Below are positions 9,603-38,194 of a DNA stretch of 64,000 nucleotides, piece after piece. The notes beneath the pieces were generated by a model. It was not told the origin of the DNA. It was given only the letters and a program-made list of their open reading frames with translations, and did no database searches. Position 1 is the first letter of the stretch, and every line of letters begins with the position of its first letter. The translations under genes were made by a program, and so were the position numbers. This DNA comes from Rhodamnia argentea. Taxonomy: Eukaryota > Streptophyta > Magnoliopsida > Myrtales > Myrtaceae. The DNA lies in the NCBI RefSeq assembly GCF_020921035.1, contig NC_063155.1, forward strand, positions 22,747,294-22,811,293. The letters are read 5' to 3'.

Positions 9603-10499
9603 TTCTTTTCGACTAAACAAGCGAATAGAAGTAAATCAATGACCGAAATTGCGATCCCGTGTTTGTTCTTGGCGACCTTTGCCAGTGGTAGTGATGGCAT
9701 TTCTAGGAGCCGTCGCTATAGCCGCTGTTGTCGTCCCTGTTATCGCCATCAAGGACCCTCTTCACGCATGAAAATCATCCGGACAACCATCCAACTCCAG
9801 CGACATGAAAATCATCCGGACAAGTTGGATGTTTATGGACAGGTTCTCTAGGGCTACTGCACTGTCACGTCCCAAGACAAGTTTTATTCTACTTTTCTCG
9901 CGTGCGGGCATCATAGAGAGAGCTTCGAACTACTACATGCCTGTCATTTTTGTTAACATATGATCGACGTACGTGTGCCCGTAATTTACTTGGCCAAATG
10001 ACACGTGGCGATCGAGACTCCCCAACAGATCAAGCCAGTCCGGATGCCGGCAGCATAATTCCCAATCCCCACGGGATAAGCTCTAGCGGATTGAGCAAAT
10101 AGCAAAGTGACCATCTCTAGAATCTAATTCTAAGTTAATCTATAAATTGTAATCACGGTTTACTTATGAAAAGGGCAGATACTAACAATTTATTCAAGTA
10201 TTTAAAAAGCTTTTTCTCCTGTGGATGAGCTCCTGGCCTGGAGAAAAGCATAATCAGGAGCCAGCATCCAACTCACTCGGCCTCCTGGATTTCTTTAGTG
10301 CTTCAGCAATAGCATATGCTAAACCACAGATAGGGACACAAAAATTGCTTACTTCAAGGCCAAAACTGACGCACGCTTTCTCCATGCAAAAGGAAAAACT
10401 TAACCCTGACCTGAACAGGCCTTGAAAGGAAATTTCAAACATTACAGTGCAGCCAATAATCTTATCAGTCGCAAAGTAGCATGCGAACTAAGGAAAGAG

Positions 10500-12533
10500 T
10501 CACCGTCCCCTTGGAAACCGCTTCATCCAACTCCTCAGTGCTTGCAATGAACAACTCGATATACCGACTCCCCAGTGTCATCCTGTCCACAACCATAACG
10601 GCTCTAGATTCTTCTGCGCTCGCAAACTCGACACACGCTTCCCCAAAAGCCCTCCCCTCGGAGTTGACGACAATGTGAATGGAATCTTCAGAAGTCTTTG
10701 AAAAATTCCAATACAGTCATCCTTGCCAGCTGATAATCGGCAACCCCTTCAGTCGCAGTGTTCCCCATGTGCTCTCCAGAGTCCTTCCTCTCATTAGAGG
10801 ACTTTCCTTGGGTTATGCTCCCGTGAGGAGATCCGCCACGAGCTTCTCAAACCTCATTCGCTATCGCCTAATAGTAGTCTTGCCTCTTACTTCTGAAGTC
10901 TTCGACATATCTATGACCCATGCTTTGCCTGTTTCTTTGAAGGGCAAAATCGACTTGAAGAGGATAACCCAAACCACAGAAGGCTCCTCCCATGAACTTC
11001 CCATCATTGTGAACAAACATAACATCAACGATGTCCAGGCCATGGAAGAACTCAGCAACGTCAACTTCAGTACAATTAAAAGGAAGACTGCGAAGCCGCA
11101 CCAGCGGGAAAGGTGGAGACTGAACAGTGAAAGCATAAGGTGAAGCATTGTACATGTAGCTCAAACGAGGAGAAGCGCTGTGGAACGAAGAGTCCTTTTC
11201 GAATAGGCATGGTCATTTTGGACCCATTTCACAAACGTCATCAAAATAATCAAACATACCGAAATTTCTAGTAGAAGCTGTTAATTGTTCTTTTTTTAAT
11301 CAGATGGTAGAAGCTGTTAACGGGGCTAAATTTTGTACTTCAAAAATGGAGAGACTACAACTTTTCATGGGCTTCCTCCATTCAATTGTTAAATTATCAC
11401 AAACGAGGAATAAACTTTAAATTCAAGCTGAAAAACTTAAAAGCATATTAATAAAACTTTCAAAGCCTTCAAGCTGTAAAATCCATTTTTCATGAACTAT
11501 CAAAACATGCACTGAATATGGGAAAGGAAAGCCATATTGCCCCATGCACTTCTTAATGGGTGGACTAAAACATCTATCTCCGAATACAAAAGCTTCTTCT
11601 TTTCCTATTACTTTTCCAAATATGTGGGCGATGCATCAAGCCAGAGGTGAGTGATCAGTATATATGAACACTTGCTGTTTTATTCTTTGCAACTAATCTG
11701 GAATAAACCTGGCACATTGAACAAAAATAGCTCGGTGAGAAGAAAAGTATACATAAAACTATGCAAGGCAACAAAGTTCGTGCCAGCAGAACATCTAAGA
11801 TGATGGCACTCACTTGATATATCCCTTGTCACAGTGAACGCACAAAGCCCATTCCCTGCACAAAAAATTATATGATAACACCAAAACCATTACAATAAAT
11901 CAAAACAAACAGTTACTATTGATTATACTACACATGACATTCATAAACCTCTACATATTTGTTGAATGTGATGATGCCCTTGAGCCGGAATTATCAAAAT
12001 TAGGCCATTAGGCCAAACAAAACGGCTTCTTTGTAGGATAACCCCAGCCATTGCATCTAAATTATCAAATGCATATTCACCAGAATTTAGCACAATAAGG
12101 GACTTCCAAGAACTCGTGTTTCGCAGCTAACTTTAACCAGCTGGACCTTGCAATTCCAAATCAAATCTGCCATCAACACAGAATCCAAAACTAGCAACAA
12201 AAAAAGGGGAAAACGAATTCCCAAAATGGGTTCAAGTTCCACACTTGGAGACACAAATTGGAATAATTTACGAATGCAAGAAGGAACCCACACTCCGGCG
12301 GGACTAAAATAAAAATTAAAAAACCTATAGGAGATACTATGCGCACTGGAGAACAACAGCCCAATCATTCACAGAAAAAAGGACAGACATCAAATTCACG
12401 AAAGCGCATAGAAAATGAGCTAATTAGACATAATCATTGAGGAGTGTATGCAATATCGACAAGAACCTAAGCACGAGAGAAAGAGAAATAAAATGATGTG
12501 AAATCGACTTTACCCTCTGTAGTACATCGACAT
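10500..12533 (-). pseudogene. Broken copy of the double-RRM hnRNP F/H-like gene
   Basis: This is the arm A counterpart of the intact gene at 28475-30760. The tiny first exon (MSMYYR then GT) is still visible at about 12514-12533. The intron is conserved in outline, including 'taaaatgatgtgaaatcgac' next to the donor. Exon 2 still encodes SYMYNASPYAFTVQSPPFPL and LPFNCTEVDVAEFFHGLDIV in one frame. Further on it is broken: compared with arm B it has extra bases in the segment 'ccaatacagtcatcc' (where arm B has 'ccaatacgtcatcc') and in 'gataatcggcaa', and a small deletion in 'cttcagaagtctttg'. RRM2 therefore cannot be read in frame. The initial part of exon 2 also shows substitutions in conserved RRM1 positions (GEAFCVLGYP has become GGAFCGLGYP). 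Confidence 0.85.
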
Positions 12534-12711
12534 GTTTGGCTGTGTGAAAGTCAACTGTTTCGAATGGGTTGAATCAATGACTCCGATCTTCTTTGCAGAG
12601 AAGCTCAAAGCTCTCTGTAATTGATTGTGGTGGTGAACAGCAACAAGGGAGACCGGAGACTTTGAATGTTTAACAGCTCATCGATGTGCAACAGATCCTC
12701 TGAATGTGTAC

Positions 12712-15294
12712 CTAACTCTCTTCATCAAGCAGTATCCATTGGATATCAGAAACATATCCAGCGTCCTTGATGGAGCACGACAAAGAACTTAAAATTGCAT
12801 AAATCAAATCCGTCTGGGGATGTGACTGATCTCTGGCAGTGAAAACATGAGCTTGATTTCTTATAACAATCCAACTAATTCCTGGAGGTTTTCTTAGACC
12901 TTTCTCTTTCAGCCATGCCCTTATAAGCCGGACGTCTGACCAAACGCCAGCGGCAGCATAGATATTTGAGAGCAAAACATAATTTCCCTCATTTGTAGGC
13001 TCCAATTCAACAATTTTCTCAAAGACAAGCTTGACAAGCTTGGTATTAGAATGGACTTGACAAGCGCTAAGCAGAGCTCTCCACACTAAAGCATCAGCTT
13101 CAATAGGCATTGAATTGACAAAATTTAGAGCTTCATCTAAGTGGCCACCACGCCCAAGAAGATCAACCACACAACCATAGTGAATAAGTTCAGGCTTCAC
13201 CTTAAACTTGCGAAACATTGAATTGTAAAGAAGCAACCCCTCCTCTATCAATCCACAATGGCTGCAAGCAGATAAAATAGATACGAAAGTTGCACTGTTT
13301 GGTTTCATACCATCTTCCAGCATCTGTCGAAAGGTAGATATAGCGCCTTCTCCCTGACCATGCATTCCATAGCCAATTATCATAGCATTCCATGAGATAA
13401 CATCCTTTTGCCAAATCAAATTAAAAACTTTTTCGCCATTGTGCAGACTGCCACATTTTGCATACATAGTTATCAGCGCATTTGCAAGGGATGCATCAGA
13501 ACCAATAGATGACTCCCTCCGGGTTATGTAAGCATGAATGCACTGGCCTAGATGAAGATCAGCTAGGTGGATACATGACGATAGAACATTTATAAGCGTG
13601 ACTGAGTTAGGTTCAGTTTCTGAGATCAAACGTCTAAAGAGTAGCAGAGCCTTGTGAGTCTGGTTGTTTCTAATGTAACTGGCAATCAAAGAATTCCATG
13701 AGACTATATCTTTGTTGGAGCAGCAGTCAAACAAATTCCGCGCTGTCACTTCATCACCACAGTCCATGTACATCTCTGTCAGTGCAGTGTTCAAGGGTAT
13801 ATTAATATCAATGCCCTGCTTAATTACATAGCCATGGATAGATCGGCCAATGTTGAGTGAAGGTGCATCATCACAGGAAGCAAGAATTGATATAATTGTG
13901 TAAGAGTTGGGCTTGATTTCGGACTCATGCATCCTTAGAAAGATTTCCAATGCTTCAACTTTTGAGTTGCTATTGGCCAATGCTGCAATTAAAGTGTTCC
14001 AAGATACTACGTCAACGGCTGGCAGATGAGTAAAAGCCTTCTTAACAGCTTCGATACAATTGGTCTCTTCGTACATATTCAAAAGTGCATTACCGAGAGA
14101 TACATCAATAAGCATACCAGCCTTAATCACATGCGCATGTAAACTTCTACCAAATCTCATCCCATCTGCTAAGTCTGCACATGAAGACAACATGAGAATA
14201 ATAGTTCTTTCGTCTGCCTCGACATCCTCAGTTAGCATTCTCAAGAACAAACTCTGAGCTTCTTCAGGACAGCTGAAATCAATGTATGTAGACAGCATCG
14301 AATTCCACAGCACAACATCACAGGTAGGAACAGATTTAAATACTTCATATGCAAACTCTGGTTTCTGTAGCTTACTATACATATGCAGTAATGCATTTGC
14401 CAAGTAGACATCACAACTTAGTTCAGACTTAATAGCCATTTGATGAATTTGCATTGCCAGACCAAGAGATCCATGCTCTGTGCAGGCCTGAATCACTATC
14501 AACATGGTGACCTCATCAACTTCGCCCCCATTCTCTAGAATCCTCACAAAAAGCTTTAAAACCATTAAGTAGTCGCCAGCTTCAAAATAACCCATTATAT
14601 TTGCATTCCAACTCACCATGTTCTTCACCTCCATCGTGTCAAACACATTGTGTGAAACCTTCACGTTAAACTTCGCATAAAACCCTATTAAAGCAGTTCC
14701 AACATGAGGGTATTCATGAAATAGCCCACTCCTCAAAGAATAACAATGTAATTCCTGCCCCATTCTCAACTCCATCGCTTCCCCGCAGGCCAAAAGCAAT
14801 GCCACAACAGTACGAGAACTCGGTTTCACACTCTGCCTCCCCATTTCCAGGAACACTGAAATCGCCTCCTCGTGATCATCCACACCCACGTACCCATTTA
14901 TCATCGTATTCCACGAAACAACATCTCTCTCAGTCATTCTATCAAACACATACCAAGCATCCTCAACGAGTCCGCACTTGCAATAAAAGTCGACAAGAGA
15001 AGTAGCCACTCGCACATCCTCCATCAAACCTGTACCCAGAATGCTCGAATGAATTCTCTTGCCTAGTTCGACATCATTCAACCTCCAGCAGGCCTTGAGC
15101 ACCAGAGGCAACGTAGCCTTGTCCGGGGATATGCGTAAAGACAGCATGTGGGCATAGGTCGAGAGGATCGCATTGTCGTTCTTGAGCTTGGCATGGCGCT
15201 TGATGAGTGCGTTCCAATCCTTCAGGTCCTTGCTTGGTGTGTTGGGTTGTGCAGGTGAAGGTGGGAGCTTGACATAGCTAGAGCTCAGTGACAT
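12712..15294 (-). CDS. Pentatricopeptide repeat protein, PLS class with E/E+ tail, 860 aa
   Basis: The gene is one uninterrupted exon with ATG at 15294, as is typical of plant PPR genes. The protein is a chain of PPR units of about 31-36 residues; clear units carry VRVATSLVDFYCKCGLVEDA, NALLHMYSKLQKPEFAYEVF and ANALITMYAKCGSLHNGEKV, each followed by the 'DVVSWN' phrase typical of L/S motifs. The C-terminus (GLRKPPGISWIVIRNQAHVF, then the DQSHPQTDLIYAIL phrase) is the E/E+ region; there is no DYW deaminase ending. Proteins of this class bind organelle RNA and often specify C-to-U editing sites, supplying the deaminase in trans. The N-terminus is Ser/Pro-rich, and plastid or mitochondrial targeting cannot be decided by eye. 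A truncated, broken copy lies at 36.76-37.96 kb. This copy is therefore the functional one of the pair. Confidence 0.92.
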   Translation of the reverse strand: MSLSSSYVKLPPSPAQPNTPSKDLKDWNALIKRHAKLKNDNAILSTYAHMLSLRISPDKATLPLVLKACWRLNDVELGKRIHSSILGTGLMEDVRVATSLVDFYCKCGLVEDAWYVFDRMTERDVVSWNTMINGYVGVDDHEEAISVFLEMGRQSVKPSSRTVVALLLACGEAMELRMGQELHCYSLRSGLFHEYPHVGTALIGFYAKFNVKVSHNVFDTMEVKNMVSWNANIMGYFEAGDYLMVLKLFVRILENGGEVDEVTMLIVIQACTEHGSLGLAMQIHQMAIKSELSCDVYLANALLHMYSKLQKPEFAYEVFKSVPTCDVVLWNSMLSTYIDFSCPEEAQSLFLRMLTEDVEADERTIILMLSSCADLADGMRFGRSLHAHVIKAGMLIDVSLGNALLNMYEETNCIEAVKKAFTHLPAVDVVSWNTLIAALANSNSKVEALEIFLRMHESEIKPNSYTIISILASCDDAPSLNIGRSIHGYVIKQGIDINIPLNTALTEMYMDCGDEVTARNLFDCCSNKDIVSWNSLIASYIRNNQTHKALLLFRRLISETEPNSVTLINVLSSCIHLADLHLGQCIHAYITRRESSIGSDASLANALITMYAKCGSLHNGEKVFNLIWQKDVISWNAMIIGYGMHGQGEGAISTFRQMLEDGMKPNSATFVSILSACSHCGLIEEGLLLYNSMFRKFKVKPELIHYGCVVDLLGRGGHLDEALNFVNSMPIEADALVWRALLSACQVHSNTKLVKLVFEKIVELEPTNEGNYVLLSNIYAAAGVWSDVRLIRAWLKEKGLRKPPGISWIVIRNQAHVFTARDQSHPQTDLIYAILSSLSCSIKDAGYVSDIQWILLDEES

Positions 15295-15414
15295 CTCCGT
15301 TTGAAGGACACGTCTCTCCGCGTCAAGGCAACTATGGTCAATGCGGTTATGTTTTCTCCAAGTTGGGGATGCTAATTGGGCCCGACCAAGCTTGGGCGGG
15401 CAACCTGTTTGTTG

Positions 15415-16028
15415 CCGGCGAGAACTCTTTTAGCGCCTCCAGTAGCGGTGTCTGCTGGCGGCCGCATACTTAAGAAAGGGCCTGTTCGCGCCATTTGTTA
15501 ATTCCTTTCAAGTTGTGATTATCTAAAGAGAAAAAAAAACGGCAAGATTTTCCCTTTCAATTATTCAATTCACGTGAAACAGTTCTAATCATCTTTCACA
15601 GGCTCAATATCAAGCATCTTCATGAAACTCCGAATCGACCATTTAATAAAACTCCACCGAAAGTTCTCACTGCAAACTTAGCCAAAGTAAACGAGAAAGA
15701 AGAGAATTCACAAACAAACAAGATACAACAGCATCACATTAGAACAGGACATACCCTTTCTGGTACAGAGACTGAAGCTGCTGGTCGAGCTGTCGAAAGG
15801 CTTCACGAGCCTCCGTCTTGGTCTACCTCGAATTGCTTCGAATCTTTTCTCCACCGGACGAGCCACCGCGGAATGAGTTCTTCCCTTGAGAATTCGGAGC
15901 CTTCGTGGGGCTAAGAGCTGAGGAGACACAGCTCGCAGCGAAAGCATCTGAGTGAGAAAGAAAGGGATAAATTGGCGCGTCGCTTAAGAATCGCAGGTTG
16001 GTTCCCAAGCTTGAAGATGAACAACAGG
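15415..16028 (-). pseudogene. Duplicated 5' part of the plastid membrane-protein gene (exon 1 plus intron start), broken
   Basis: Positions 15415-16028 align with 4009-4672: 'cctttcaa(g/c)ttgtgattatct', 'catcttcatgaaac' and the exon phrase MLSLR..VSPQLLA match. The exon 1 start corresponds to 15947. Reading stays similar for about 35 residues (to ARPVEK), then a frame shift puts the Gln-rich helix out of frame. Exon 2 is absent nearby, because the neighbouring sequence to the left is the PPR gene. The fragment sits head to tail behind the PPR gene 5' end, so this junction was created by rearrangement. Confidence 0.75.
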
Positions 16029-16941
16029 CGAGAGTGTTACATCTCGAAAATTGTAAGTAGGAGGCCCAAAGATGGGCCGGGTCCAGCCCGCCCTGGAAAG
16101 GCCGCATGTCACACTGGGCGGTCAAGAAAAAGGGGCCGGTCCAGCACTTAATTTGGGTCGGGTCGGCCCATTCGACATCTCAAATTTAATCCGGAATTCA
16201 CCAATGCACATTGGGCATGCTAAATTAAGCAATTTTAACCTCGAAAAAGTTCCCGCCAACGTTAAGAAACTACTTGTAGTGCCAATCCATGGGGTTTGAC
16301 TAGTCAAATAATTTTGATTTATGTTTAGGAAGGGGGAAAAAATGAGTCTAAGGCCCCCGTTTATTTCATGAGAAACAAATGATTTTGACAATATTTACCT
16401 AAAAATAATGCTTGTATCGTCTAAAATAATTAGTTAATCGACAAATATTTATGTTTAAATCTTCCCGTGAATGATAAAGATATTCTCTAGCGTTAATACC
16501 ATAAAAAAAAAACTCCAAAAATTACATACCCGTGACAAATTTATCTCAAACAAATTATTTCGATAATCGACAATCACATAAGCATTTTATCTAATATGAT
16601 AATCGAAGGGGTAATTAAAATAAATCTCGATAGACTTGCGTAAAGAGGAAATTCAAATAAGTGAGAAGAATAGTTAAAGAATAGCAAGAAGATGGCATGG
16701 CCCTTTAATTTCTTAACCCCTGTTTACCCCCTCAGGTCCTCCCTATTCCCTAGCCACGCCGCAGTTCCTCCTCCGGAGGTCAAATGAGAAATGCCTTTCA
16801 GCATGCGGGCTGATCGAATGCATTTGGCTAAGGAATCATTGGGAACCATAAATGGGTCGAAAGGGAGTATTCAAATCAACTATGAGATCTTCAATGCCCA
16901 TACGGTATTGAAATTGGACCCGCGATATTCTATTCTAAACT
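16029..16941. other. Intergenic, no gene recognised
   Basis: The stretch is mixed AT-rich sequence. Short open frames such as the one at about 16072-16299 have no domain or codon pattern of a gene. The left part, up to about 16.3 kb, carries 'gggccggtccagcac' and 'ggtcgggtcggccc' phrases that are common in plant intergenic repeats. Confidence 0.25.
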
Positions 16942-17551
16942 GAAAATTGTCCAAAAAGTTTTAAATCTATTGCACGGTAGCCAATCCAGTCCTAAATTTT
17001 TCAATTGTGCCAAATTGGTTCTATACTCCTTAACGATTTATCAATTTCTTTCTCCCGGTCAATTTTGATCGGAAATCACCGATGTGTGCATCGATCATCC
17101 TATGTTGCATGGCCGGCACTAACGTGGATCAATTTTTGCAATCTTGTTTAAATTTTCTAGAATTTTTTTTCTTTAGTTTTTATTTTCTTTCTTCCTCCAT
17201 TGGTTGCCATGGTTTGCCATCGAATTTGGTGAGGGCCAGCCTTGCTCGAGGCTCAACCTCTCTGGCCCTTGCATGTAGCTAGTCGCTAGCCATTGCCAAG
17301 GCTTCACAACCGGTAGAGGAAAAAGGAAAAAAGAAAAAAAGTCAAAAGAATTTTAAAAATAAAAAAATGCAAATAATTGTCCATGTAAGCACCAACCGGG
17401 CCACATAAGAGATCTGTCTCCCATGTGAGCTAAAATTGGCTCAAAGAACTATATTAGCAAATTATCGAAAGGTTTAGGATTAAATTGGCTAAATTGATAG
17501 GTTTAAAATGTATTTGTATAATAGGTTTAGGATTTCTTTTGATAATTTTCC
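16942..17551. repeat. Foldback MITE-like element, family A copy 1
   Basis: The left end 'gaaaattgtccaaaaagttt' pairs with the inverted right end 'gataattttcccc', and the arm phrase 'caattgtgccaaattggt' returns as 'attggctaaattgatagg'. The core holds a GC-rich 'ggccagccttgctcgagg' segment. The family arms read like 'xx-taaacctattgcaattgtgcc-aat-tcggtcctaaac' and recur at five other places in this window. Confidence 0.6.
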
Positions 17552-17591
17552 CCTTTTTTAAGAGGTTGGTGTGTATTACATTCTATAGTAT

Positions 17592-18033
17592 TAAGGAAAA
17601 ATTACCAAAAATATCATAAACATATTGTAATTGTGCCAAATTAAGTCCTAAACTTTTTGTTGCCGATTTAGTCTCAAACCTTTTATAATTGTGCCAATTC
17701 GGTCTATCCGATAAATTATGGTCGGCGGGCGCCTTGCCTCACGACGGCGAGATTGAGCCTCACCCGGCCATGGCAAGGCCGGCCTCGCCTAGAGGCCACA
17801 GCAAGGTCGGGCTTGGGCCGTCCCTATGAAGAAGAGGGAAGAGAAGGGAAAGGAAAAAGAAAATTAGAAAATACAAAATACTATTAGAATATTAGGTTGT
17901 CGGTCAAAATTTACCGGATGGACAAAATTGGCATAATTGCAAAAGTTTTAGGACTAAATCGGCAAAAAAAAAAGTTTAGGACTAAATTCGCACAATTGTA
18001 ATAGATTTATGACTTTTTTGGTAATTTTCCTTA
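17592..18033. repeat. Foldback MITE-like element, family A copy 2 (best preserved ends)
   Basis: The left end TAAGGAAAAATTACCAAAAA and the reverse complement of the right end TAAGGAAAATTACCAAAAAA differ by a single-base indel. The inverted arms continue with 'gtaattgtgccaaattaag' against the inverse of 'actaaattcgcacaattgta'. The core (about 17720-17830) is GC-rich and contains 'ggcctcgcctagaggcc'. This copy defines the family ends best. Confidence 0.75.
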
Positions 18034-19103
18034 GCATTAGAGACCGAGCATCTAGCAACCCATATGGTTCAATTGCAATCATGCTGGTTCTTTGAGAGGG
18101 TTGGGGGGACAACCTCCAAATTGCTCTTGATTATTTCTTATGCCGTGCATGATTGGATTTCTTAAGGAATGAGAATCCAATTTGTACAATTTCCATGTTT
18201 AGGAAGATACGAAATGTCGGATATGGTTCCACATAGTATAGGGTTTCCCAGAAAGTGCAAAATTGGATTGCCTAGCAATAATTTGGATTTGGGATTCCAA
18301 TGCTGCATTCCTAACACAATAAAATTACTAAAAACCCCACTTTATCGCTACCGCCATAGCCGGTCCCGCTGACACATTAGGAAGGTGACAAATATTCTTT
18401 CTTTGAAGTCCTAAACTTTTTACAATCCAAACAAAGTAGAAAGAAATCTTCTTCCTAGAAATGGGATCACTTGAGGTGAGAGTTCATTAGAGAATTCCTT
18501 ATAAATAAGGCCTCGATCCAAACTCAATTATTATAGAGTGATCATCCAAACAATTCTATCTGTGTAGCACTGGCCTTTTGCACCGTTAGCAGCGGGATCC
18601 GAATTTCGGACTCGATTCATAAATTCCCATCTTTTGGTGACAATTCAAACTTGTTGGAATCGAATCTGCTTAATTACTTAGATTTTCCTTTTAGACGTAC
18701 CATCTTCAGTTTCATCCCCCCTTTTTGGCCAAAGCCTAGGATGCTCGAGTCCTTCTAGGAACTAGCAAAAAACAGCTAAAGTCTCCTCGTTCCTTAAGGC
18801 GCTAACAAACCTCGTCTTAAAAGGTGAGCGTCCAACGCATGGCTCCGTACTAATGCTATCCCGACAAGAGTGTATGGCCAAACACCATCTTTAACCCTCT
18901 TTAATTAACATTAACACTCTTTTTCATGATCTGAATGAGAATGACCCGTGTGAACTTTGCCACATGCTTTCAAATGTGCTCGATTATATAGAGGTCCACT
19001 CAGCTAAATATTCTCTATTCTGCAACCAAAGAAAGTATATAGAACATTATTGAATAGAAGTCAAATATTAAATGCTATAAAACTAAAAGTCATGAAGACC
19101 CCA
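18034..19103. other. Intergenic, unassigned; promoter-like segment near 18.5 kb
   Basis: A TATAAATAAG segment at about 18501-18510 is followed by C/A-rich DNA and a GC-richer stretch 'gcaccgttagcagcgggatc'. This layout resembles either a promoter or the control part of an old long terminal repeat. I could not find paired ends or any internal protein, so no call is made. A polypurine and splice-free stretch follows to 19.1 kb. Confidence 0.2.
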
Positions 19104-19723
19104 GCAAAAGGACACCTAGAACGCCAATATTTGTGTATGACACTCACTTTGGTGTCAATATATTTTTTTGAATCACTTAAGTATCAAATTAGAAAATAAA
19201 CGATCATTTTAGTTCGAATGACGAGAAATTCGGCCAACTCATTACATGCTATTTATTTTTAATTTTTTAACATTACGTGGCTTTTTTTTTTTTTAAAAAA
19301 TCAACCCATGTGGCATCCACATAGACTTTAAAACTTAAAAATAAGTTAATTTTTTTTATAAATTAAAATTAAGAAAAAAAATCCTAAAAAGTAAAAAAAA
19401 ATAAAAAAAATTTTGCGGTGGCGAGGGCTTGCACAGCCCTCTCACAGCCCTCGTCGCAGCAAATCTTTTATTTTTGTTTACTTTTAGCTTATTTTTGGTT
19501 TTCCTTTATTTTTAATTTTTTATATGTTGATTTTTTTTTATTGATTTTTAACTTTTTTTTCTAACTAGTATCCTCCGGCGAGGCACATATGATTTCGTGT
19601 GAAATTCACCAGAGTTGGCACTGAAATAATTATCTTTAAAAAATATTGGCACTTAAGTGATATATATATTGACACCAAAGTGAGCGCTGTACACAAATAT
19701 TGATACTCCAGGTGTCCTTTTGC
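19104..19723. repeat. Foldback MITE-like element, family F, long near-perfect terminal inverted repeats
   Basis: The left end starts GCAAAAGGACACCTAGAACG, and the right end read inverted starts GCAAAAGGACACCTGGAGTA. Pairing continues for about 60 bases through 'tcactttggtgtcaatatat' at both ends. The interior is AT-rich with poly-T and poly-A blocks and a short 'cagccctctcacagccctcg' tandem. There is no open frame of note. The close agreement of the ends suggests a younger insertion than its neighbours. Confidence 0.8.
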
Positions 19724-19795
19724 CTAAAACCCCATATCATATTGTTTGTAAAGAAACTGCTCAACACCCTTTTAGTATGAAGTAAGAAAGATCAA

Positions 19796-20071
19796 ATTTC
19801 AAAGAAGAAGGGAAGAAAAACAGAAAGAAAGAAAAAGAAAGAAAAGGCAAAAAGAAAATTTTAAATATTATTTAAATTTATTTACATCAGCGTCGACCTT
19901 GCCGTGTAGGACAACCATCATCCGCATCAGCGATTTTCGTTTAAAATTGGTCGGATGGACTCAACTAACTAAAGGTGAAAATATTTAGGACTCTATTAGC
20001 ATGATTAAAATGGTTAGGACTAAATTGACAAAAATTCAATAGATTTATGACTTTTTGGACAATTTTTCCAA
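19796..20071. repeat. Right-hand part of a family A foldback element
   Basis: The right arm phrases 'ggactaaattgacaaaaatt' and 'tagatttatgactttttgga' match the right arms of the complete family A copies. The corresponding left arm was not found, so the element is truncated or its left end was replaced. Confidence 0.45.
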
Positions 20072-20769
20072 AGTAGAACTACTAAAAGGTATAGTTTTAT
20101 TTTTTCGTATTGCACCAATTAAACGTATGCTCTTAAATAGAACCGCGATTGCACCATTGGATAGCATCAAGAAATGTGATTTGATCTAATTTGATCTTGT
20201 TAACCCGGGGGTGTTTTATTTCAACAATATCCACCACACCCGTTTGACCCAAAAGTAAAAGGAGATTGAGAACCTTTGTGAAAGAAATGGGGGCAACCTC
20301 GGATTCTAGAAAAGTTAGCAAGGCGTGGAACGTAGCAAAATCAACTGAAAACGAAGGAAAAACCACCATATGTCTTGATCTGTCGGACATTTCAAGTCGC
20401 AATTCACTGTAAATAAAGTCGGTCCTCACTTGAGGACAAGCATCAATCCAAACTCGGCTTCTTCGCCGTTTAATTCGCACATATTTTCCTCATTCCGAGA
20501 TGATTCTGAAACCCTAATTATATTTTTTTTCCTCATGCACACGCACGTACAGTACTCAAGCGATTCCATCATACCTCGATGGAGCAACACGAATCTATCC
20601 ATCGCCACGATCAAGATCACACACACACACACACACATAAAAGAAACGAGGGTTTGAGTTTCGCGGTCTCTTGCATGTGAAACATAAAACAAGATGTCAC
20701 ATGCATCCTCATCTCGAACGTTGTATTTTCACGTTCATGCCGAGCATCAAGTGCGAAGCAAGGGTTACT
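20072..20769. other. Intergenic with an (AC)n microsatellite
   Basis: An (AC) run lies at about 20620-20637. Open frames on the minus strand (about 20133-20480 and 20426-20692) show no conserved motif, and one is partly made of the microsatellite, so I do not call genes. Confidence 0.3.
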
Positions 20770-24911: not shown

Positions 24912-24945
<34 letters not shown>

Positions 24946-27370: not shown

Positions 27371-27517
27371 CAATAGAGATAGCAAGAGATGGTTCAACTT
27401 TTCATAAAATTTGCTGATAAATATTCAAGGTTCGACTTCCTTTTGAGTTTATGTTATTGTATAGAGAGATGGTTCTATCAATTTTGATGGCAACAAAGTT
27501 GTGTATCAATGATCCCC

Positions 27518-27890
27518 ACATTTTAGCCTAATGTATAATTTTGTCTTTGAACTTTTAATTAGTTTAATGTGATCCTTGAATTTCATCTTAATGTATAATA
27601 TCGTCCATGAACTTTTAATTTGTTTAGCATTGTCCTTGAACTTTTAAAAAGATTTCAATCTAGTCCCTAACCTATATGAAAATATCCAATGTTATCCTTC
27701 CATTAAGTCAAGTTCAAAGAAATTATTGAATATTTCTTTATAGTTTATAGACTAAATTAAACATGTATCAAAAGTGTAAGGACCAAATTGAACAAATTAT
27801 AAATTTAGGGACGATATTGTCTATCGAACTAAAGTTCGAGCATTACATTACATATTAAAAGTTCAAGAATTATTTGTGTCATTTTCCCTT
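27518..27890. repeat. Foldback MITE-like element, family B copy 1
   Basis: The arms consist of short direct subrepeats of the type 'gtccttgaacttttaattt', which return inverted on the right as 'aaaagttcaagaattat'. The right terminus is 'gtcattttccctt'. The same architecture recurs at 38627-39006. Confidence 0.6.
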
Positions 27891-28474
27891 AAAAATACGG
27901 AGACATGATGCAAAAGAACTAAATTGCCCGAAATGGTCCAATGAGGGAAATGTTTTGAATCCTTCCATTTACACAAAGGAAACAGAGCGAAGCAAGCCAA
28001 AGTAGTGGGCTTTGAAGTTTTATCTTTGGAAAAAAATCACACATACAATGAACTCTTCGATTGGTGGGCCTCGCCGCAATATACCTCGACATACAATTTC
28101 ATTTTATTATTTTCCTTCAGGCAAGTTTTAGATAGATGCAAGCATGTTTGACGTATTTGGGACTTCATTCAAAGATATTTAAAAAGCTTTTTCTCATGTG
28201 GTCGGGCTTTTGGCTTGGAGAAACGCTTAATCAGGAGCCAGCATCCAACTCACTTGGCCCTTGGCTTTCTTTAATGCTTCTGCAAATGCTGAACCACGTA
28301 TGGAAACACAAAAGTTGCATACTTCAAGGCCAAAACCGACACATGCTTTCTCCATGCAGATTAAGAAACTCAAATCTAAACCGAGCAGGCCTGAAAAGGA
28401 AATTTCAAGCATCACAGTGCAGCCAAATAATCTTATCAGTCGCAAAGTAGCATACAGGCGAACCAAGAAAAGAG
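27891..28474. other. Probable 3' UTR and downstream flank of the RRM gene
   Basis: From about 28180 to 28474 the sequence matches 10.20-10.50 kb in arm A, so conservation continues well past the stop codon. That agrees with a 3' untranslated region. No independent gene was seen. Confidence 0.4.
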
Positions 28475-30760
28475 TCACCGTCCCCTCGAAACCGCTTCAT
28501 CCAGCTCCTCAGGGGTTGAAACGAACAATTCGATATACCGACTCCCCAGCGTCATCCTGTCCTTGGCCATAGCGGCTCTAGAATCTTCTGCATTCGCAAA
28601 CTCAACATAAGCTTCCCCAGAAGGCCTCCCCTCAGAGTTGAAGACAATATGAATAGAATCTTCAGACAACTCAAAGTCTTTGAAAAATTCCAATACGTCA
28701 TCCTTGCCAGCTGAAAATGGCAATCCCCTCAATCGCAGTATTCCCGTGTGCTCTGCAGAGTCCTTCCTCTCATTAGAAGACTTTCCTCGGGATATGCTCC
28801 GGTGAGGAGATCCTCCACGAGCTTCTGAAACTTCATTCGCTATCGCCTTATAGTAGTCTTGCCTCTTACTCCTGAAGACTTCAACATATCTACGACCCAT
28901 GCTTTGCCTGTTCCTTTGAAGGGCAAAATCGACTTGAAGAGGATAACCCAAAACACAGAAGGCTTCTCCCGTGAACTTCCCATCGTTGTGAACAAACAGA
29001 ACATCAACGATGTCCAGACCGTGAAAGAACTCAGCAACGTCAGCTTCAGTACAATTAAAAGGAAGGCCGCGAAGCCGCACCAGTGGGAAAGGTGGAGACT
29101 GACCAGTGCAAGGATAAGGTGAAGCATTGTACATGTAGCTCGAACCAGGAGAAGCCCCGTAAAACGAAGAGCCCTGATCAAATAGGCGTTGTCGTTTTGG
29201 ACCCATTTCACGCCCGTCATCAAAATAATCAAACCTACCAAAATTTCTGATGGAAGGGAAACAGAGCAACAATATCACGTTACTTGTTCTGTAAGCAATG
29301 CTACAGCAATAAAAAAAGCCCAAACTACAGTTTTAAGCTATTCTTTACTTTAATAAAAAAATGATCCTTCAAACAACTAAAGCAAACAGAACTCTGCTTG
29401 CGTTCTTCCAGGCATCCAAAACAATCGTCCTCAATAAAATTAGTAGCCAATATGTATCTGATGATTGTTTTTACCAGAATTTCAAAGAAAATATCCAACT
29501 TGTGGTCATGCTTTTATAAGTGAAACTACTTCTCTTTCGCCATGCAAATGAAAAAGACCTATTGTCTCCCGTACAAACTAATGTAACTAGCTCTTAACAG
29601 AGCTAAATTTTATACTTCAAAAATGGGGAGACTACATCTTTTCATGGGCTTCCACCGCTCAAATGTTCAATCATCACAAACGAGGAACAAACTTCAAATT
29701 CAAGCTGAAAACTTAAGAGCATATTCAAAGGACATTTCAAAGCCTTCAAGCTGTAAAATCCATTTCTCATGAACTATCAAAACAGGCACTGACGATGGGA
29801 AAGGAAAGCAGTATTGCCCCAATGCACTTCTTAATGGGTGGCATAAAACATCTATATAGGAATACAATAGCTTCTTCTTCCCCGATAACTTCTTCAAAAT
29901 TGTGGGCAATGCACCAAACCAGAGGTGAGCGATTGGTATATATGAACACTTACTGTTATAATCAACACAGCTAGCCAGGAATGAATTTGAGACGATGAAT
30001 AAAAATAGCTCGGTGAGAAGTTCTATATATTTAAAAAAATGCCAAGGCAGCAAAGGTTGTGCCAGCAGAACATCTAAAATGATAGCACTGAATTGATCTA
30101 CCACTTGTCGCAGTGAACGGACAAAGCAAATTCTCCGTATGGAAAAGAATATGATAACACCTAAACCAGTACAGTAAATCAAAACAAACAGCTACTACTG
30201 ATTGGAGTTAGGCCATTGGGCCAAACAAAATGGCCTATGTTTAGGATAACCCCAGCCATTGCATCTATATCGTCAAATGCATATTTACCAGAATTTGAGC
30301 ACAATAACGGACTCCAAGAACTCATATTTTGCAGCTAATTTTAAATAGATGAACTTTGCAAATCCAACTAAATCCGCCATCACCACAGAAACCGACATTA
30401 GCGACAAACAAAGGGGAAAAGGAATTCCCAAGATGGGTTCAAGTTCCATACTTGGAGACACAAATTGGGATCATTTGCGAGTGCAAGAAGGAACACAAAC
30501 TCCGGCGGCACTCGAAAAAAAGGAAAAGAAAACCCTACAGAATCCAATTGCAAGGGAAGATACTATGTCCGCTAGAGAATCACGGCCAAATCACTCAGAG
30601 AAAAGGAGGAAAGACATCGAATCTACCAAAGCACATACGAGATGAGATAAGCAATCGTCATTATTGAGGAGCGAAGGCGAAATCGGCGACACCTGAGCAC
30701 GAGAGAAAGAGAAATAAAATGATGTGAAATCGACATTTACCCTCGGTAGTACATCGACAT
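28475..30760 (-). CDS. hnRNP F/H-like protein with two RNA-recognition motifs, 259 aa
   Basis: Exon 1 is only 20 bases (30741-30760, MSMYYR plus two bases). A 1.5-kb intron follows, and exon 2 is 29234 down to the stop at 28475. The joined frame is exact. A second ATG two codons on (30754) would give MYYRG, the more usual start of relatives. RRM1 covers about residues 58-128 (RNP-like VRLRGLPF and GEAFCVLG), and RRM2 about 172-245 (LRLRGLPF and GEAYVEFA). This pairing of quasi-RRM motifs is typical of hnRNP F/H and GRSF-like proteins, which bind G-rich RNA and affect splicing. A linker rich in Ser and Arg (145-165) separates the two. The first exon sits next to a region conserved with arm A (12.5-12.64 kb), which probably includes the 5' UTR. 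A broken paralogue is at 10500-12533, so this is the surviving copy. Confidence 0.9.
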
Positions 30761-31162
30761 GTCTGGCTGGGCGAAGGTCAACTGTTTCGAATGTGTCGGA
30801 TCAATCGCTCTGGTCTTCTTCCCGGAGAGGCTCGAAGCTCTCTGCAATTGATAGCGGTGGCGGACGGCGACGAGTGGAGAGGGGGAGACCCGGTTCTGGA
30901 GCGCGAGAAGGTGAATGCAGGAAGCTTCTGGCGAGGGGAGGGCGAGATGGTGACGTGGCATCTGTGTTTCTTCTCCGACTCGAGCCGAAACGGCGACGTC
31001 CCCGAGTGTGGGCTGATCGATGTAACTGGGCTTTTTCAGTTGACTTTGACATGGGCTTTTTGACTTTTTTTTTTTTTTCCTCTGAGTGCGCACGAGAAAG
31101 CCCGGTAAGGTTTATGTTCGCGCCCAAAGGTATTCTTGTGATGAGCGGAGGGGGGTAAGAAA

Positions 31163-31680
31163 GCCGTAGAAAATTTCAATTAACCCCCTGTGTTGATTGC
31201 CTTTTCTCAATTTGCCCCCTGTTGGATCCCAACGTTCCAAACAGCCCCAAAAGAGGTGCGCGTGAGCCTTGAGGGACTAGCACTCTCTGCCTCACGTGAC
31301 ATTTTTTGCGCCAAGAGACGGGCAATTTTTCCCTCGACATCACACCGTACCGGTTCTTATCCCTAACTCTCGAGTCCCCGCCCCGCGCATCGATCTCCGC
31401 CGCCTTATCCTCAGGCCCTCCTCCCTCATCGTCTACGCCGCCCTCACCAGCAACCTCACATTCGTCAACCAGGAACGCGGGCATCATCCTCGTACGAGGA
31501 GGCGTGGCACTTCTTTATGTAAGCCCTTTCATGTGGTGTAAGTCCATAGTCCACTCCCGTGCGGTTTCGAGAAAAGGATCAGGTGAATTTTGGGGCTGTT
31601 TGGAATGTTCGTATCCAATACGAGCAAGGGGCAAACTGACCAAAAAAGGGCCGGCCTCTCTATGGGGCGTTTTTAAAAAA
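31163..31680. repeat. Foldback element, family H
   Basis: The left arm 'ttccaaacagccccaaaag' returns inverted on the right as 'ttttggggctgtttggaa', and 'caatttgccccctgttgga' pairs with 'caaggggcaaactg'. The interior is GC-rich (31.25-31.55 kb) and open in several frames on both strands, with no recognisable protein. It lies just upstream of the RRM gene's first exon. Confidence 0.65.
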
Positions 31681-32378
31681 GGAGGATCAACATGAGGGGA
31701 TGATGGGAAATTCATTATCTGATAATTTTAATAGTAGTCTACTCGGTCGGTGTACTCGGCATAGTTTTCAAATTAACATTGTTATGCCTCCGTTTCATAC
31801 GATACGAACCATGAACTCTATTTCTAGGGAACAATTTCGTTTCTTATGCTCAGCACGTACGTTCTGTCCCATTCAAATTAGCTTACAATCGGAGAATTTA
31901 AATAAGGAGGTCTAAACAAGCGATTTCTTTTTTGAGTACGACGCATTCACTCTAAGTTGTGTAAGCCCGCTCACACCTAACGGTACCGTATAAAATGAGT
32001 TGATACTTTGTTTTTTTCCTGATTATATGAGTTTGACCCCCCAAACCAAAAAAAAAAAAAAAAAAAAACGTTTTAAGGTCTTCGGTCGTGCTGCATGCAT
32101 TTGTTGACTCATGCGAGTGGGTGGCAGGAGGAGGCAAAGTTGGATTATGACTCTTTGTGAACCAATTCAGCACGTTCCCGCAAAGCAAGGGATCCCACCA
32201 TATTTAAGGAACCGACCACTTGGAAAATTATGGACCTCAAACATCGTCTGGTTAACGTTCACACATTTCGACCAAAAAAAAAAAAAAACGTTCACACACC
32301 TTAAATTTTTTTTTTTTTTTAAATTACTGAGATTGCCCCAAATCCTCCCTTTGCAGAGAAGAGAGAAGGAAACGCCGA
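31681..32378. other. Intergenic, poly-A/T rich, nothing recognised
   Basis: Long A or T runs occur at about 32048-32068, 32274-32288 and 32307-32320. The phrase 'cgttcacacatttcgacc' is followed at once by 'acgttcacacacctt', a small duplication around a poly-A run. No gene was seen. Confidence 0.2.
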
Positions 32379-33477
32379 AAAAATTGTCAAAAAAGTCATA
32401 AATCTTTTGTACTTTTACCAATTCGATCCTAAACTTTTTAATTTTGTCAATTCAGTATATCCGACCAAATTTTGACGATCAACACTGATGTGGATGCCGC
32501 CCAGTACTAATGTGAATGTCGGCGATGACGTAGACAATTTTAAATAATATTTTAATATTTTTAAAATTATTTCTCTTTCCTTCTCCTTTAATTTTTCATT
32601 TGTTCTACCTTCAATCGATTGCGGGTGGCAATTGGCCAGTGCTCGACCTCGCTGGCCTCAAGCGAAGCTCGCCACCGTCGACCATCGGCCGGGGCAAACC
32701 TCCCCGGCATAGGGAGAGTGCCGATTTGGGCGAGGCTCGCCGAAGTTGATAGCGAACACTGGAATGGAAATTAGGGATCTGTAGCAACTCCGGATCTCCA
32801 CCCATTGAGGAGAAGACCCAAAAATTCCAGACCATTTGATCAATCGGAATTGCCATCCCCACGCGATATCTGTTTCCTTCTCATTTTCCATCTTCGGCAT
32901 ATCTTTTCCTAGAAAATCTTTCCCGACCTTTTTCGTTTTTTCCCCTTCCTTTTCCAGAGCTCGCACCGATTTTTCTCCTATTCACACACGGTCCACCGCT
33001 TTCCTTCTGTTTCTTGCTCGTCTTGGTCTTCGTCTCTATCTACCGCACGCATTCTCTTCTTCTACGCCTTTTTTTTTTCTTTTTACTTTTTTTATTTTGG
33101 CTCTTCCACTGTATGGGAGACCTCGCTCAGATCGGCACTTCTGCCTAGCGCCGGTGAGGCTCACCAGCGCCAATGTGCGGCGACCGGCCGGCTAGAGGAA
33201 GAAGGTAGGAATAAAAAAAGAAAAAGAAAGGAAGAAAAAGAGAAAAAATAATTCGAAAAGTATTAAGACATTAATAAGAAAGAGTCCACATCATCGTCGA
33301 ATTCCTCGTGAGCGTCGGCAGGCATCCATGTCAACACCGACCAATCAAAATTGACCGGATGGACTAAATCGACATAAATACAAAAAGATTTAGGATTGAA
33401 TTGGTAAAACTAAAGGTTTAGGATCGAATCGGTACAAATACGATAGTTTTTAAGATTTTTTTTTTATAATTTTTCAA
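32379..33477. repeat. Foldback MITE-like element, family A copy 5 (long core)
   Basis: The left arm 'tcataaatcttttgtactt' with 'accaattcgatcctaaac' pairs with the inverted right arm 'tttaggatcgaatcggta' and 'caaatacgatagtttttaag'. 'tatccgaccaaattttgacg' pairs with 'caaaattgaccggatgg'. The core of about 0.8 kb is longer than in other copies and contains pyrimidine-rich and GC-rich DNA (32.6-33.2 kb) without a clear protein, so it may hold captured host sequence. Confidence 0.6.
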
Positions 33478-33708
33478 GAAAACACCTCTTCTCTTCGAAG
33501 ATTCTCTTTGTGGTCAATCACCCGATTCATGAATCTTTGACTGCTTTTCTGCTTTGATCTCTTATATTATGTGAATTGGAAATACCCATTTGCAATTTGC
33601 TCGGAATTCTCTCGTGGTGGCAACCCTCGTTGCGTAGATACTTCTGATAAAAAAAAAGCCTAACATTGATCTCCCACATACTAAAAAAGAACAGGCGAGA
33701 GGGAGGAT

Positions 33709-35240
33709 ATGGTGGGGGCTCTATCCGCCGTGGGCTCGTCGGTTGTGGAATCACACACGTCCCCATTTCTGTGCCTCGACTCACTTCCCACGAGCGCGAG
33801 TCTCAAGAGCGGCGGAGATGTGGTCGGTCTGCGTAGAAGCCCCTGGGGAAGGGAGCAACTCTGGAGGCCCGGGTCGTTGGAGCTGGGGAGCTCGTTCCTC
33901 GATTCGTGGAACCATCGGCGGCTCCACGCCAAGTCGGTGCCCAGGAACATGAGCCGTCGCTTCTCGAACAAGCCGCGGAAGCACCGGAGCTTCAAGATCG
34001 CGAGCGAGGTGGCCGGGCAGTATGAAGACAGCTTCGAGGATGTCAAGACGGTGAGCATCCTCCGTCCGGCATGCATCATAGATTAACGGTTCCGTGCTCA
34101 CGTAATCCGCAGGCTTTTCGCTATTTCGGTTCGATCATGTCCTCCCGTCGTTACAAAGGCGCGAGAACTGGGGACACAGCCAGGAAAATAAGAGAGGCAA
34201 TCGGTATATTCTGCGATTCATTTTCTATTAAGCACCTTCTTATGTGGAAAACTGTTCACGCCTGCAGCAAATACTCAATTACTTCACGTATAAAGCCGTG
34301 AGGACGGTTCTCAACCAGCTGTACGAGATGAACCCGACGCAGTACAGGTGGCTTTACGAGTAAGTTTCCATCTTCACCTATCATGCGAGACAGCTTGATC
34401 TGTTATCTGCTGAATTACCTGCAACAAAACAGATGGTTCGATGGCTTATTTTACTCACCAAGATTTTGCTTTTCCTCCAGTTTATTGTGTGAACTAGTCA
34501 GAAGACCCTCTGGTTCTCTACAAAGAATAGTCGATCCTATATTTTAGCTTTCCAAGTCAACTTTAGATTCTATGGCGAAAAATTAATAACTGCAGATTTT
34601 GATAAAAGCTTGTATCAAAACAAGGGGAGATTTCTCCAACCTTAGAATTGTCCAGCCAAGCTATAACTTCAAAGGCGGACTCTCCAGCTCATGCTTGTTT
34701 TCACCGTCATCTGTGTGTGCGATTTTTCGTAATCAATCGTCATGTCTAAGTGTCACTGCTTCATATCTGTTGGCCAGATTTGTTGCGACAAACAAGCCTG
34801 GAGATGGAAAGCGTTTCATCAGCATACTGGGAAAGGTATTCTTCAGAACTCTGTAATACCATTTTTGTTAGGGCATCATGCGAAAAGAATGACCAACCCT
34901 GCATTCAAAAGCTTTTGCAACATTAGGGCGTAAATTCTTGATGTGCTAGGGTCACACTAGCAGAAGAAATAGAAGTTACAGTTAAAGACTTTTTTCAATG
35001 GACTTGATACGAAAGAAGCAGTAGTAACTTTGCATATCCTCCCTCCCTCTCTGATCTTAGGAGAAGCACGATCTTGCGGAGAGAGTAATGATCACACGTC
35101 TTCACCTTTATGGCAAATGGATCAAGGTAACAAAAGTCAAGAGATCAGTAGTTTCTTTGTGTATGTGTAATCCAGCTAAATTCTTGTCATTGTTGTATAG
35201 AAATGCAATCATGCTGAAATATACCAAGAGATATCTGACG

Positions 35241-35283
<43 letters not shown>

Positions 35284-35323
35284 TTGGCCATCAGATGATA
35301 CAAACACAGAGAAGATTGGCTAA
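33709..35323 (+). CDS. RBCX: Chloroplast RbcX, Rubisco assembly chaperone, 226 aa
   Basis: Five exons join in frame: 33709-34050, 34268-34359, 34778-34835, 35061-35126 and 35201-35323. The start is ATG at 33709, giving MVGALSAVGSSVVESHTSP, a Ser-rich N-terminus that includes the transit peptide. The RbcX domain begins near EVAGQYEDSFEDVKT and continues with LNYFTYKAVRTVLNQLYEMN, FVATNKPGDGKRF, AERVMITRLHLYGKW and the C-terminal MRERLMETVIWPSDDTNTEK, all conserved in plant RbcX. The protein forms dimers in the stroma that clamp the C-terminal tail of the Rubisco large subunit and help assemble the L8 core. I skipped an open stretch inside intron 1 (see findings) because its 91 bases would break the frame. 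The gene sits inside segmental-duplication arm B; no copy was seen in arm A. Whether it is RBCX1 or RBCX2 is left open. Confidence 0.93.
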
Positions 35324-36754
35324 GATGTTGCATCTTCACATTCCATTCGTTTGGTTATACGTCTGTCAGTTGTTAGCTTACTTCACCCTTACTGAGCTTC
35401 AATCTTAATTTTCCCTTGCCTACAATGTGTAAATAGTTCCTAGATACTTTACAGAAGCAATTATTAGATAGTGATAATTTCCCCTTTCATCAACAATGTT
35501 ACTATCTCAAAAGTTGGAACTTTCACCTCTTTTATAAAACAATTCCCATTTAATAAGCTCGAACTTTCACCTCTTCACTTGACAATGGAAAAATGTTTGA
35601 CTGCCAGTTGCAAAAACCCCTAAACCAGACTAACAGATTTGAAAGGACCATACATGCAGAGTTCTCTGTAGTACGCCCTGATAGAAACTGAATACGTCAC
35701 GTTGCAGTATAAGCCACTCAAGAAATTGAAAATCTGATCAAGTCAGGTTGTAGGGCTTACCGACAGAGAGAGCTCCACATAGTGCTGAGCTAAGTAATTG
35801 GTGCTGGAAATGTGTTGAATTTCTGCTCTTATTTCGTGGCAAAAGGTTTCGTCAGTGATTTATCATTGATGTGTATATCTAATTTTGCTGTATGACGAAT
35901 GTACTGCCAAGAGGATGAAGGCCAAGGAATGCTTCTGTATGGAGTCATCTGAAATAAGTTTCTAGCTATGCAACTTCCTAGGATTATATCTTCCACATTT
36001 GGAGCCAAATTAGGGCGATTATTCACCTGGTATACTTCCCCAAATCTCCAAGTGGGTAATTTAAGCACATTACCACAATAGAAAAGTCGCTCCAAAATTA
36101 AGAATCCGACCTGATGTAGAAGAGATATTGACTATGTAAAAGCCAACCTGGATGTCTCTTGTACTAGCTGTCACCTCATGCAGTGAAATTATATACGCTT
36201 GACATACATTGTCTATCCATGTCCAAATATTTGAAGCTTTTGAGATGGAAAATGCTTAACATGTTATCTGAGTTCCACCTCCTTGTTTCTGCGCCCCGGC
36301 ATCCTCTTCTCCTTGTTATCTCGATGGTCCATCTAAGCACAAGTTTTCTACGTCATTTAGCTTGATGTGCTTCCAGCTCGCATCCTGCCTTTTATGGGGG
36401 AGCTTGCACTCACGTGCCTAAAATACATTGCTGCCAGCTTCTTTGTAGTTTAAACTCTTACGACATATTCCCACTGGAAAGTAGGAATGAAATGAGACTA
36501 AACTAGGAGTGGACCGACCCATTTGGTGGATCTAGGCAGCAAGTTGGTGCCTTTAATGGTTGAGATGGATGATTTTGGAAGCTCTCTTTCCTCTTTTATG
36601 TACGGCGTGGGCACGTTCCCATTAGAGACCATATCCACGATCAAAGGTATGATTTACACTTGAGCTTTCATTTGTGGTTTAGAGACCAGCCCACCGCCTA
36701 CTTTATTCCTTTCTCCGCTTCTCAATGGTTCTGTCAGAGGTACGTGAGATAACA
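35324..36754. other. 3' flank of RbcX and intergenic DNA
   Basis: The first 150-200 bases are probably RbcX 3' UTR. The remainder has no conserved protein; small frames at 35829-36095 (minus) and 36183-36365 (plus) lack motifs. Confidence 0.3.
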
Positions 36755-37960
36755 TCTGTAGAAAGGTAGATACGAAAGTTGCACTGTTTGGTTTCGTACC
36801 ATCTTCCAGCATCAGAGAAAGGTAGATATAGCGACTTCTCCCTGACCATGCATTTCAGAGCCAGTTATCAAAGCATTTCATGAGATAACATCCCTTCGCC
36901 AAGTCAAGCTATAAACTTTCTCACCATTTGCAGACTGCCACATTTTACATACATAGTTTTCAGAGCATTCGTAAGAGATGCGTCAGAACCAATAGACGCG
37001 CATGAAATATGCCAACTCTGGTTTCTGTAGCTTACTATACGTATGCAGCAATGCATTAGACATAACAACTTAGATCAGACTTAATAGCCATTTCATAAAA
37101 ATTTGCAGTTCCAGACCAACAGATCCATGCTCTCTGAGCAGGCCTGAATGACAATCAACATGGTGACCTCATCAAGTTCGCCCCATCCTCTAGAATCCTC
37201 ACAAAAAACTCCAAAACCATTAAGCAGCCACTAGCTTCAAAATAACCCATGACTATTGCATTCCAACTCCCCATATTCTTCACCTCCATCATGTCAAACA
37301 CATTGTGCAAAACCTTCAGGTAAAAACTTCGCATAAAACCCTATCAAAGCAGTTCCAACATGTGGGTATTCATGAAATAGCCCAATCCTTAGAGAACAAC
37401 AATGTAATTCCTGCCCCAGTCTCAACTCCATCGCTTCCCCACAGGCCAAAAGTAATGCCACAACAGTAAGAGAACTCGGTCTCACACTCTGCCTCCCGAT
37501 TTCCACAAACACCGAAATCGCCTCCTCATGATCACCCACACCCAGATACCCATTTATCATCGCGTTCCACAAATCACCATTTCTCTCAGCCATTCTACCG
37601 AACACATACCGAGCATCCTCAACGACTCCACACTGGCAATCGAAATCGACGAGAGAAGTAGCCACTCGCACATCCTCCATCAAATCCGTACCCAGAATAC
37701 TCGAACGAACTCTCTTTCCTAGCTCCACATCATTCAGCCTCGGGCAGGCCTTGAGCACCAGAGGCAACGTGGCGTTGTCGGGCAATACGCGTAAACCCAG
37801 CATGTGGGCATAGGCCGACAGTATCGCATTGTCGTTCTCGAGCTTCGCCTGGCGCTTGATGAGTGCGTTCCAGTCCTTGGGGTCCTTGCTTGGTGGGGTT
37901 GGGTTGTGCAGGTGAAGGTGGGAGCTTGAGATAGCTGCTAGAGCTCGATGACATCTCCGT
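36755..37960 (-). pseudogene. Truncated, broken copy of the PPR gene
   Basis: Sequence matches the intact gene at 12712-15294 in three parts: 36755-37000 (to 13.27-13.50 kb), 37010-37320 (to 14.34-14.66 kb) and 37290-37960 (to 14.64-15.30 kb). About 840 bases are missing between the first two parts, and the 3' part coding roughly the last 185 residues is absent. An open stretch still reads DWNALIKRQAKLENDNAILS and DVRVATSLVDFDCQCGVVED, with the first Tyr and Lys of the repeat replaced. A frame shift near the start separates the original N-terminus from this frame. The copy cannot make a full PPR protein. Confidence 0.9.
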
Positions 37961-38194
37961 TTGAAAGACGCGTGTCTCCGTGTCGCGGCGACGACCGTCA
38001 ATACGGTTATGCTTTCTTCAAGTTGGGGATGCTAATTGGGCTAGTTAGGCCCATTTATTTTTCGGGCTAATATTGGGCCCGACCAAGCTTGGACGGGCCT
38101 AGCGGGCTTTGAGGCCCATTGAATTGTCGTGTTATATTGCGCCCACGTAAAGTAAAATAAATAAATAAATTTTTAACTGAGTCTCACTGACTTA

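Follow-up and report, generated by a model that had tools for sequence, protein, structure and literature searches.

After duplication of a genome or of a segment, duplicated neighbouring genes undergo complementary loss between the two copies, which lie on homoeologous chromosomes, a process termed fractionation. For mitochondrial genomes, tandem duplication-random loss is well described (PMC5745709): a block is copied in tandem, each gene loses one of its two copies, the gene order is altered, and pseudogenes may remain as a trace. In the rice DGS1/DGS2 model (PMC5555463), the duplicates are unlinked, lying on chromosomes 4 and 7, and the copy that is lost in one species is the opposite of that lost in another. 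Here we describe a locus, carrying an RRM gene and a PPR gene in two copies each, whose history was in all probability one tandem duplication followed by complementary loss. The locus lies in a window of 64,000 nucleotides, the whole stretch of DNA that was analysed (positions 22747294-22811293 of the 32-Mb contig C6, in a genome of 346.7 Mb in 74 contigs), and its gene content (a PPR E motif, RbcX and an R2R3 MYB) identifies the DNA as that of a plant. As in the mitochondrial process, a block is present in tandem, one copy per gene has been lost, and pseudogene traces are visible; unlike the mitochondrial case, the genome is apparently a plant nuclear one, intergenic turnover has been large, and the junction cuts the upstream region of a gene. 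The complementary loss of neighbours resembles fractionation, although the copies here are adjacent on one chromosome. Duplicated genes with a single working copy left are also found in DGS1/DGS2, but the rice duplicates are on separate chromosomes (4 and 7) and vary from species to species, whereas the sites here are linked and both losses are in one genome. A literature search by titles and abstract openings made no nuclear case of tandem duplication-random loss evident among the papers listed, and one may still exist in print.

When the window was compared with itself, arm A (10189-15381) matched arm B (28164-38041) in five collinear blocks on the same strand with 80-89% identity. Both genes are on the minus strand in each arm, with PPR first and RRM downstream, and the collinear blocks confirm the two arms as a duplicated block holding RRM and PPR in equal order and strand, as a sequence-only reading of this DNA had proposed. 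A weak extra block lies to the left (9595-9857 against 26422-26683, 68% identity) and a short one to the right (15375-15401 against 38072-38098). The spacing between the arms is about 18 kb for the RRM copies and about 23 kb for the PPR copies. That introns and flanks are alike, as the same reading had it, holds for the intron and the near flanks, through which homology runs, but the remainder of the units is almost without homology: comparison of the unit middles (4648-9594 with 16035-26421) gave only short, weak matches. These middles have turned over since the duplication, or were never part of the event.

The outer limit and the junction of the duplication are marked by a direct repeat, X, in which 3992-4647 recurs at 15402-16034 (76% identity; Jukes-Cantor distance 0.226 without gaps), and these are the only two places found for it genome-wide. 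Homology between the arms ends at 15401 in arm A and at 38098 in arm B. Because it stops at 15401, exactly where the X repeat starts, the junction of the tandem duplication is between 15401 and 15402, which places it about 107 bp upstream of where PPR-A starts. Since 3992-4647 is repeated there, the first unit begins near 3992 and not at 9603, where the duplication had earlier been thought to start. The units are thus direct tandem copies with a definable junction, as in tandem duplication-random loss.

The proposed reciprocal state of the genes was borne out, in that RRM-A and PPR-B are broken and RRM-B and PPR-A are open. RRM-B has a complete two-exon frame of 263 codons with a GT donor and an AG acceptor, matches RRM_1 in 2 stretches (5.2e-15), and has hnRNP H as its closest solved chain (1.6e-34), which makes it hnRNP F/H-like. 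Read in the frame of RRM-B, RRM-A contains 3 stop codons and at least 4 frame-breaking indels, and its intron is without about 300 bp at the 3' end. Since the corresponding stretch of arm B is single-copy in the genome, loss from the RRM-A intron is likelier than insertion into arm B. A search of the 347-Mb genome with RRM-B returned RRM-B itself, the broken RRM-A, an open paralogue on contig C8 (52%) and two neighbouring C8 pieces (46-48%, one with a stop), and revealed no further intact close copy. A relative of the C8 paralogue, divided between two frames and interrupted by a stop, is located at C8:4216010-4216823, at a distance of about 120 kb from the open paralogue (C8:4092240).

PPR-A contains PPR_2 (2e-74) followed by an E motif (6.5e-21), with E+ under its cut-off, and this succession of a PPR array and an E motif is that of an E-type PPR protein. 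PPR-B carries several frame-breaking indels and one stop, and is without an equivalent of 13510-14346 of arm A (837 bp) and of everything 3' of 13278. Remains of the missing 3' end (12653-13277 of arm A) were sought in the block of arm B that is absent from arm A, where only matches of 25 and 30 bases were found (E 0.9 and 2.6). The next relative of PPR-A has 35% identity, and no other intact close copy is present, among the matches listed genome-wide (53 of 683 candidates scored).

Synonymous divergence (dS) and the ratio of nonsynonymous to synonymous divergence (dN/dS) were calculated by NG86 with 95% bootstrap intervals, over 251 codons for RRM and 384 codons for PPR. The dS of the RRM pair is 0.205 (0.134-0.292) and that of the PPR pair 0.194 (0.141-0.265). 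The sequence-only reading had put forward this comparison, in which very different values would speak for separate events; the values are near equal and their intervals overlap. Six mostly non-coding segments (X, which includes a putative exon, two intron parts, the RRM 3' flank, the RRM 5' flank and the PPR upstream region) diverge by 0.168-0.266, with the highest value in the 125-bp RRM 5' flank. Because the divergence of RRM, PPR and the six segments is similar, one event explains the duplicated parts, and all of them are of equal age, as tandem duplication-random loss entails. The event is about one-sixth as old as the split between the RbcX gene of arm B and its collinear paralogue at 25.88 Mb of C8 (dS 1.15, dN 0.068 over 112 codons). 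At rates of 5-7e-9, it would date very roughly to 14-20 million years.

The dN/dS is 0.445 (0.284-0.749) for RRM and 0.485 (0.324-0.718) for PPR, about half, as expected with one free and one strongly constrained copy per pair, and the intervals allow some delay before loss. When RRM changes were polarised with an outgroup (L011), it agreed with B at 19, with A at 4 and with neither at 21 (p 0.003). For the 5' part of PPR, four outgroups agreed with A and B in ratios of 17:5, 16:4, 15:3 and 12:6, and with neither at 35, 30, 41 and 41 sites (binomial p 0.017, 0.012, 0.008 and 0.24); for the 3' part the ratios were 4:1, 8:0, 6:0 and 3:2 (neither, 11, 8, 10 and 11). Informative substitutions appear to lie mainly on the branches of the broken copies. 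RRM-A carries 5 indels in 770 bp (6.5 per kb), one of which (14 bases, at an exon end) is possibly an alignment edge effect, and PPR-B carries 9 in 1154 bp (7.8 per kb). Introns, flanks and X together show 25 in 2168 bp over two lineages, a neutral rate of about 5.8 per kb per lineage. Since the indel density of the dead copies slightly exceeds this rate, decay appears to have begun early; on these small counts, both dead copies seem to have been unconstrained during the greater part of the period after the duplication. Without selection, the chance of remaining lesion-free is, by a rough estimate, about 3e-10 in the case of PPR-A and 0.002 in that of RRM-B exon 2. To judge from their frames, RRM-B and PPR-A are kept by selection.

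The history that we propose began with a single tandem duplication of a block at least about 11 kb long, which extended from inside gene X via RRM, and probably RbcX, to a point roughly 107 bp upstream of PPR (Table 1). Redundant copies would have decayed in complementary fashion soon after the duplication. RRM died in arm A, probably through a single deletion that took RbcX and the RRM promoter, and PPR died in arm B via frameshifts, the 837-bp loss and the loss of its 3' end. Chance may have decided which copy survived, and the survivors, PPR-A and RRM-B, have since been maintained by selection. The working gene order would thereby have changed locally from X-RRM-PPR to X-PPR-RRM.

Table 1. 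Coordinates of the duplication units, the gene copies and associated features in the window.
Feature	Position	Strand	Remarks
Duplication unit 1, contains arm A	3992..15401		Left edge is the X repeat start; right edge is the end of A/B homology
Duplication unit 2, contains arm B, enlarged relative to unit 1	15402..38098		Same boundary evidence
Gene X, candidate later exon, outside duplication	2602..2877	-	Open frame; putative assignment to gene X
Gene X, putative first exon	4347..4561	-	ATG 4561, GTATGT donor near 4347; open frame; putative exon model
RRM-A pseudogene	10189..12652	-	Exon 1 remnant 12514-12533; exon 2 remnant about 10500-11267
PPR-A, working copy, E-type, 860 codons	12715..15294	-	Stop 12712-12714; open from first ATG
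X', partial copy of gene X 5' part	15402..16034	-	76% identity; frame-shifted, donor kept; directly upstream of PPR-A
RRM-B exon 2, working copy, two RRM domains	28478..29246	-	Stop 28475-28477; RRM_1 in 2 stretches
RRM-B exon 1, first 20 coding bases	30741..30760	-	ATG, donor, acceptor
B-only block between RRM-B and PPR-B, 5.9 kb	30881..36766		No significant match in arm A or 4600-10250
Probable DNA transposon, long inverted repeats	32377..33475, approximate limits		Inverted arms; many genome matches
RbcX gene in B-only block, several exons	33709..35320	+	First exon assigned by collinear C8 match
PPR-B pseudogene remnant	36767..38041	-	Homology to A 13278-13509 and 14347-15381, with frame breaks
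Presumed native PPR upstream region, beside PPR-B	38037..38118		4 TGGGCY (site II) motifs; putative promoter role

Several points weigh against this history. The unduplicated state is a reconstruction: the loss of one copy of each gene is directly visible, and the changed working order depends on an ancestral order deduced from the copies themselves. For nearly half of proposed unit 1, the support comes from its two ends. The outgroups are distant (52% for RRM, 31-35% for PPR), at least half of the differing PPR sites and nearly half of the RRM ones are uninformative, and with one of the four PPR outgroups the result falls short of significance. The matches listed for PPR-A genome-wide are incomplete, in that the PPR-B remnant itself is missing from them, and RbcX may, though less probably, have entered arm B by insertion instead of leaving arm A by deletion. 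The large unmatched blocks that interrupt the collinearity might suggest that the RRM and PPR copies are separate duplications, side by side by chance, but order and strand are equal, homology runs through the intron and flanks, and it was on the equal dS (0.205 against 0.194) that this very improbable alternative was rejected. An assembly artefact, in which two haplotypes were set in tandem, is a frequent type of error in plant assemblies; at this locus it is at odds with the 11-20% by which the five main blocks diverge, with the many lesions and with the 32-Mb contig, and, given that divergence and a junction with a partial gene copy, we consider it extremely unlikely. The sequence-only reading of reciprocal loss agrees with our results in a single segmental duplication, here a tandem one, with RRM kept in arm B and PPR in arm A, but its link to hybrid incompatibility was not supported. 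For the complementary losses to act as a species barrier, other lineages would have to have kept the opposite copies, with hybrids segregating progeny that lack PPR or RRM. Reciprocal duplicate loss does underlie hybrid sterility in the rice case (PMC5555463), and PPR-A and RRM-B look like the sole close copies (for PPR, among the matches listed). However, the losses are known from one lineage and lie together in one genome, both arms are on contig C6 in place of the unlinked duplicates of that model, and, with distances of about 18 kb between the RRM copies and about 23 kb between the PPR copies, a doubly null gamete needs a crossover inside the locus. The indel density implies early loss, so that later opposite losses in relatives are less likely, and random loss of one copy per gene would split two genes between the arms half of the time. 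We find a barrier scarcely credible, and the locus gives no evidence for one.

Arm B does contain RRM and PPR, as had been noted, but that account left out the 5.9-kb block absent from arm A, with its gene for RbcX, a Rubisco assembly chaperone family. A single exon of 39 aa matches the RbcX domain (PF02341, 5.8e-9, 36.6 bits against a cut-off of 27) and identifies the gene, and the other four pieces, tried singly, gave no Pfam match. It is possible, though unlikely, that RbcX is not ancestral and that a 5.9-kb piece was inserted into arm B, destroying the 3' end of PPR-B: the block sits exactly where PPR-B homology ends, C8 carries an RbcX paralogue, and the RbcX and MYB paralogues are on different contigs (C8 and C5), so that no single paralogous block that would show RbcX to be ancestral was found (5 kb of neighbourhood was covered at C8). 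Yet an insertion has to contend with the gap of only 178 bp between the PPR stop and the RRM start in arm A, a spacing that is very narrow by the standards of plant genes. Three TGGGCY motifs at 31009-31052, upstream of RRM-B, belong to the block, which likely holds the RRM-B promoter, and no donor copy was seen, since outside the transposon and the RbcX exons the block has no other genome match among those listed (the best 40 of 3640 candidates). Deletion from arm A is favoured because of the 178-bp gap, because the RRM-B promoter would be in the block, and because one deletion explains both the RbcX loss and the death of RRM-A; RbcX thus probably left arm A in the same deletion as the RRM promoter.

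In appearance, the X repeat is a first exon with its upstream region, belonging to a gene on the minus strand, gene X. The left edge of the duplication would then lie inside the first intron of gene X, with its other exons further left. No Pfam family above cut-off was found for the putative first exon or for the candidate later exon, and solved structures gave no relative of note for the latter. Site II motifs (TGGGCY) have a role for PPR genes. The window contains 41 of them overall, and the presumed native PPR upstream region is the sole place with 4 within 90 bases. PPR-A retains one (15377), and two more are located just past X' (16063 and 16073). Site II motifs have also been reported from the promoters of genes for cytochrome c oxidase components (PMC5877523). 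The surviving PPR copy is the one with the cut upstream region, which consists of about 107 bp of its own sequence followed by X' on the same strand. It is tentatively hypothesized that the duplication swapped the PPR promoter, such that the gene X promoter would drive PPR-A or supply its 5' leader, the copy that died being the one with the native upstream region; judged from motifs and positions, we hold such an exchange to be rather unlikely.

Other features were observed around the locus. A tRNA-Ser (GCT) gene is situated just right of the duplication (38195-38277, plus strand), and an R2R3-type MYB gene (PF00249; 41275-43505, minus strand), the best listed paralogue of which is at C5:222295 (0.22 Mb, 85%), lies just outside it. 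An open frame at 53380-53952 (plus strand) matches the beginning of a tRNA methyl transferase HUP domain (PF03054, 1.2e-8) and is probably a first exon. A palindrome-like element at 26916-27359 has halves that match in reverse (71%), with related pieces at 17.6-18, 33.3-33.5 and 39.3-40 kb. Sequences at 1284-2186 and 25157-25894 are repeated in both orientations and are likely a mobile element.

The process itself is known, and this locus is a clean case of it: an unusually readable nuclear example in which the junction can still be seen along with the two dead copies and the two survivors. It illustrates how neighbouring genes can change order without translocation, and it may serve as a natural test of gene survival on a borrowed promoter.

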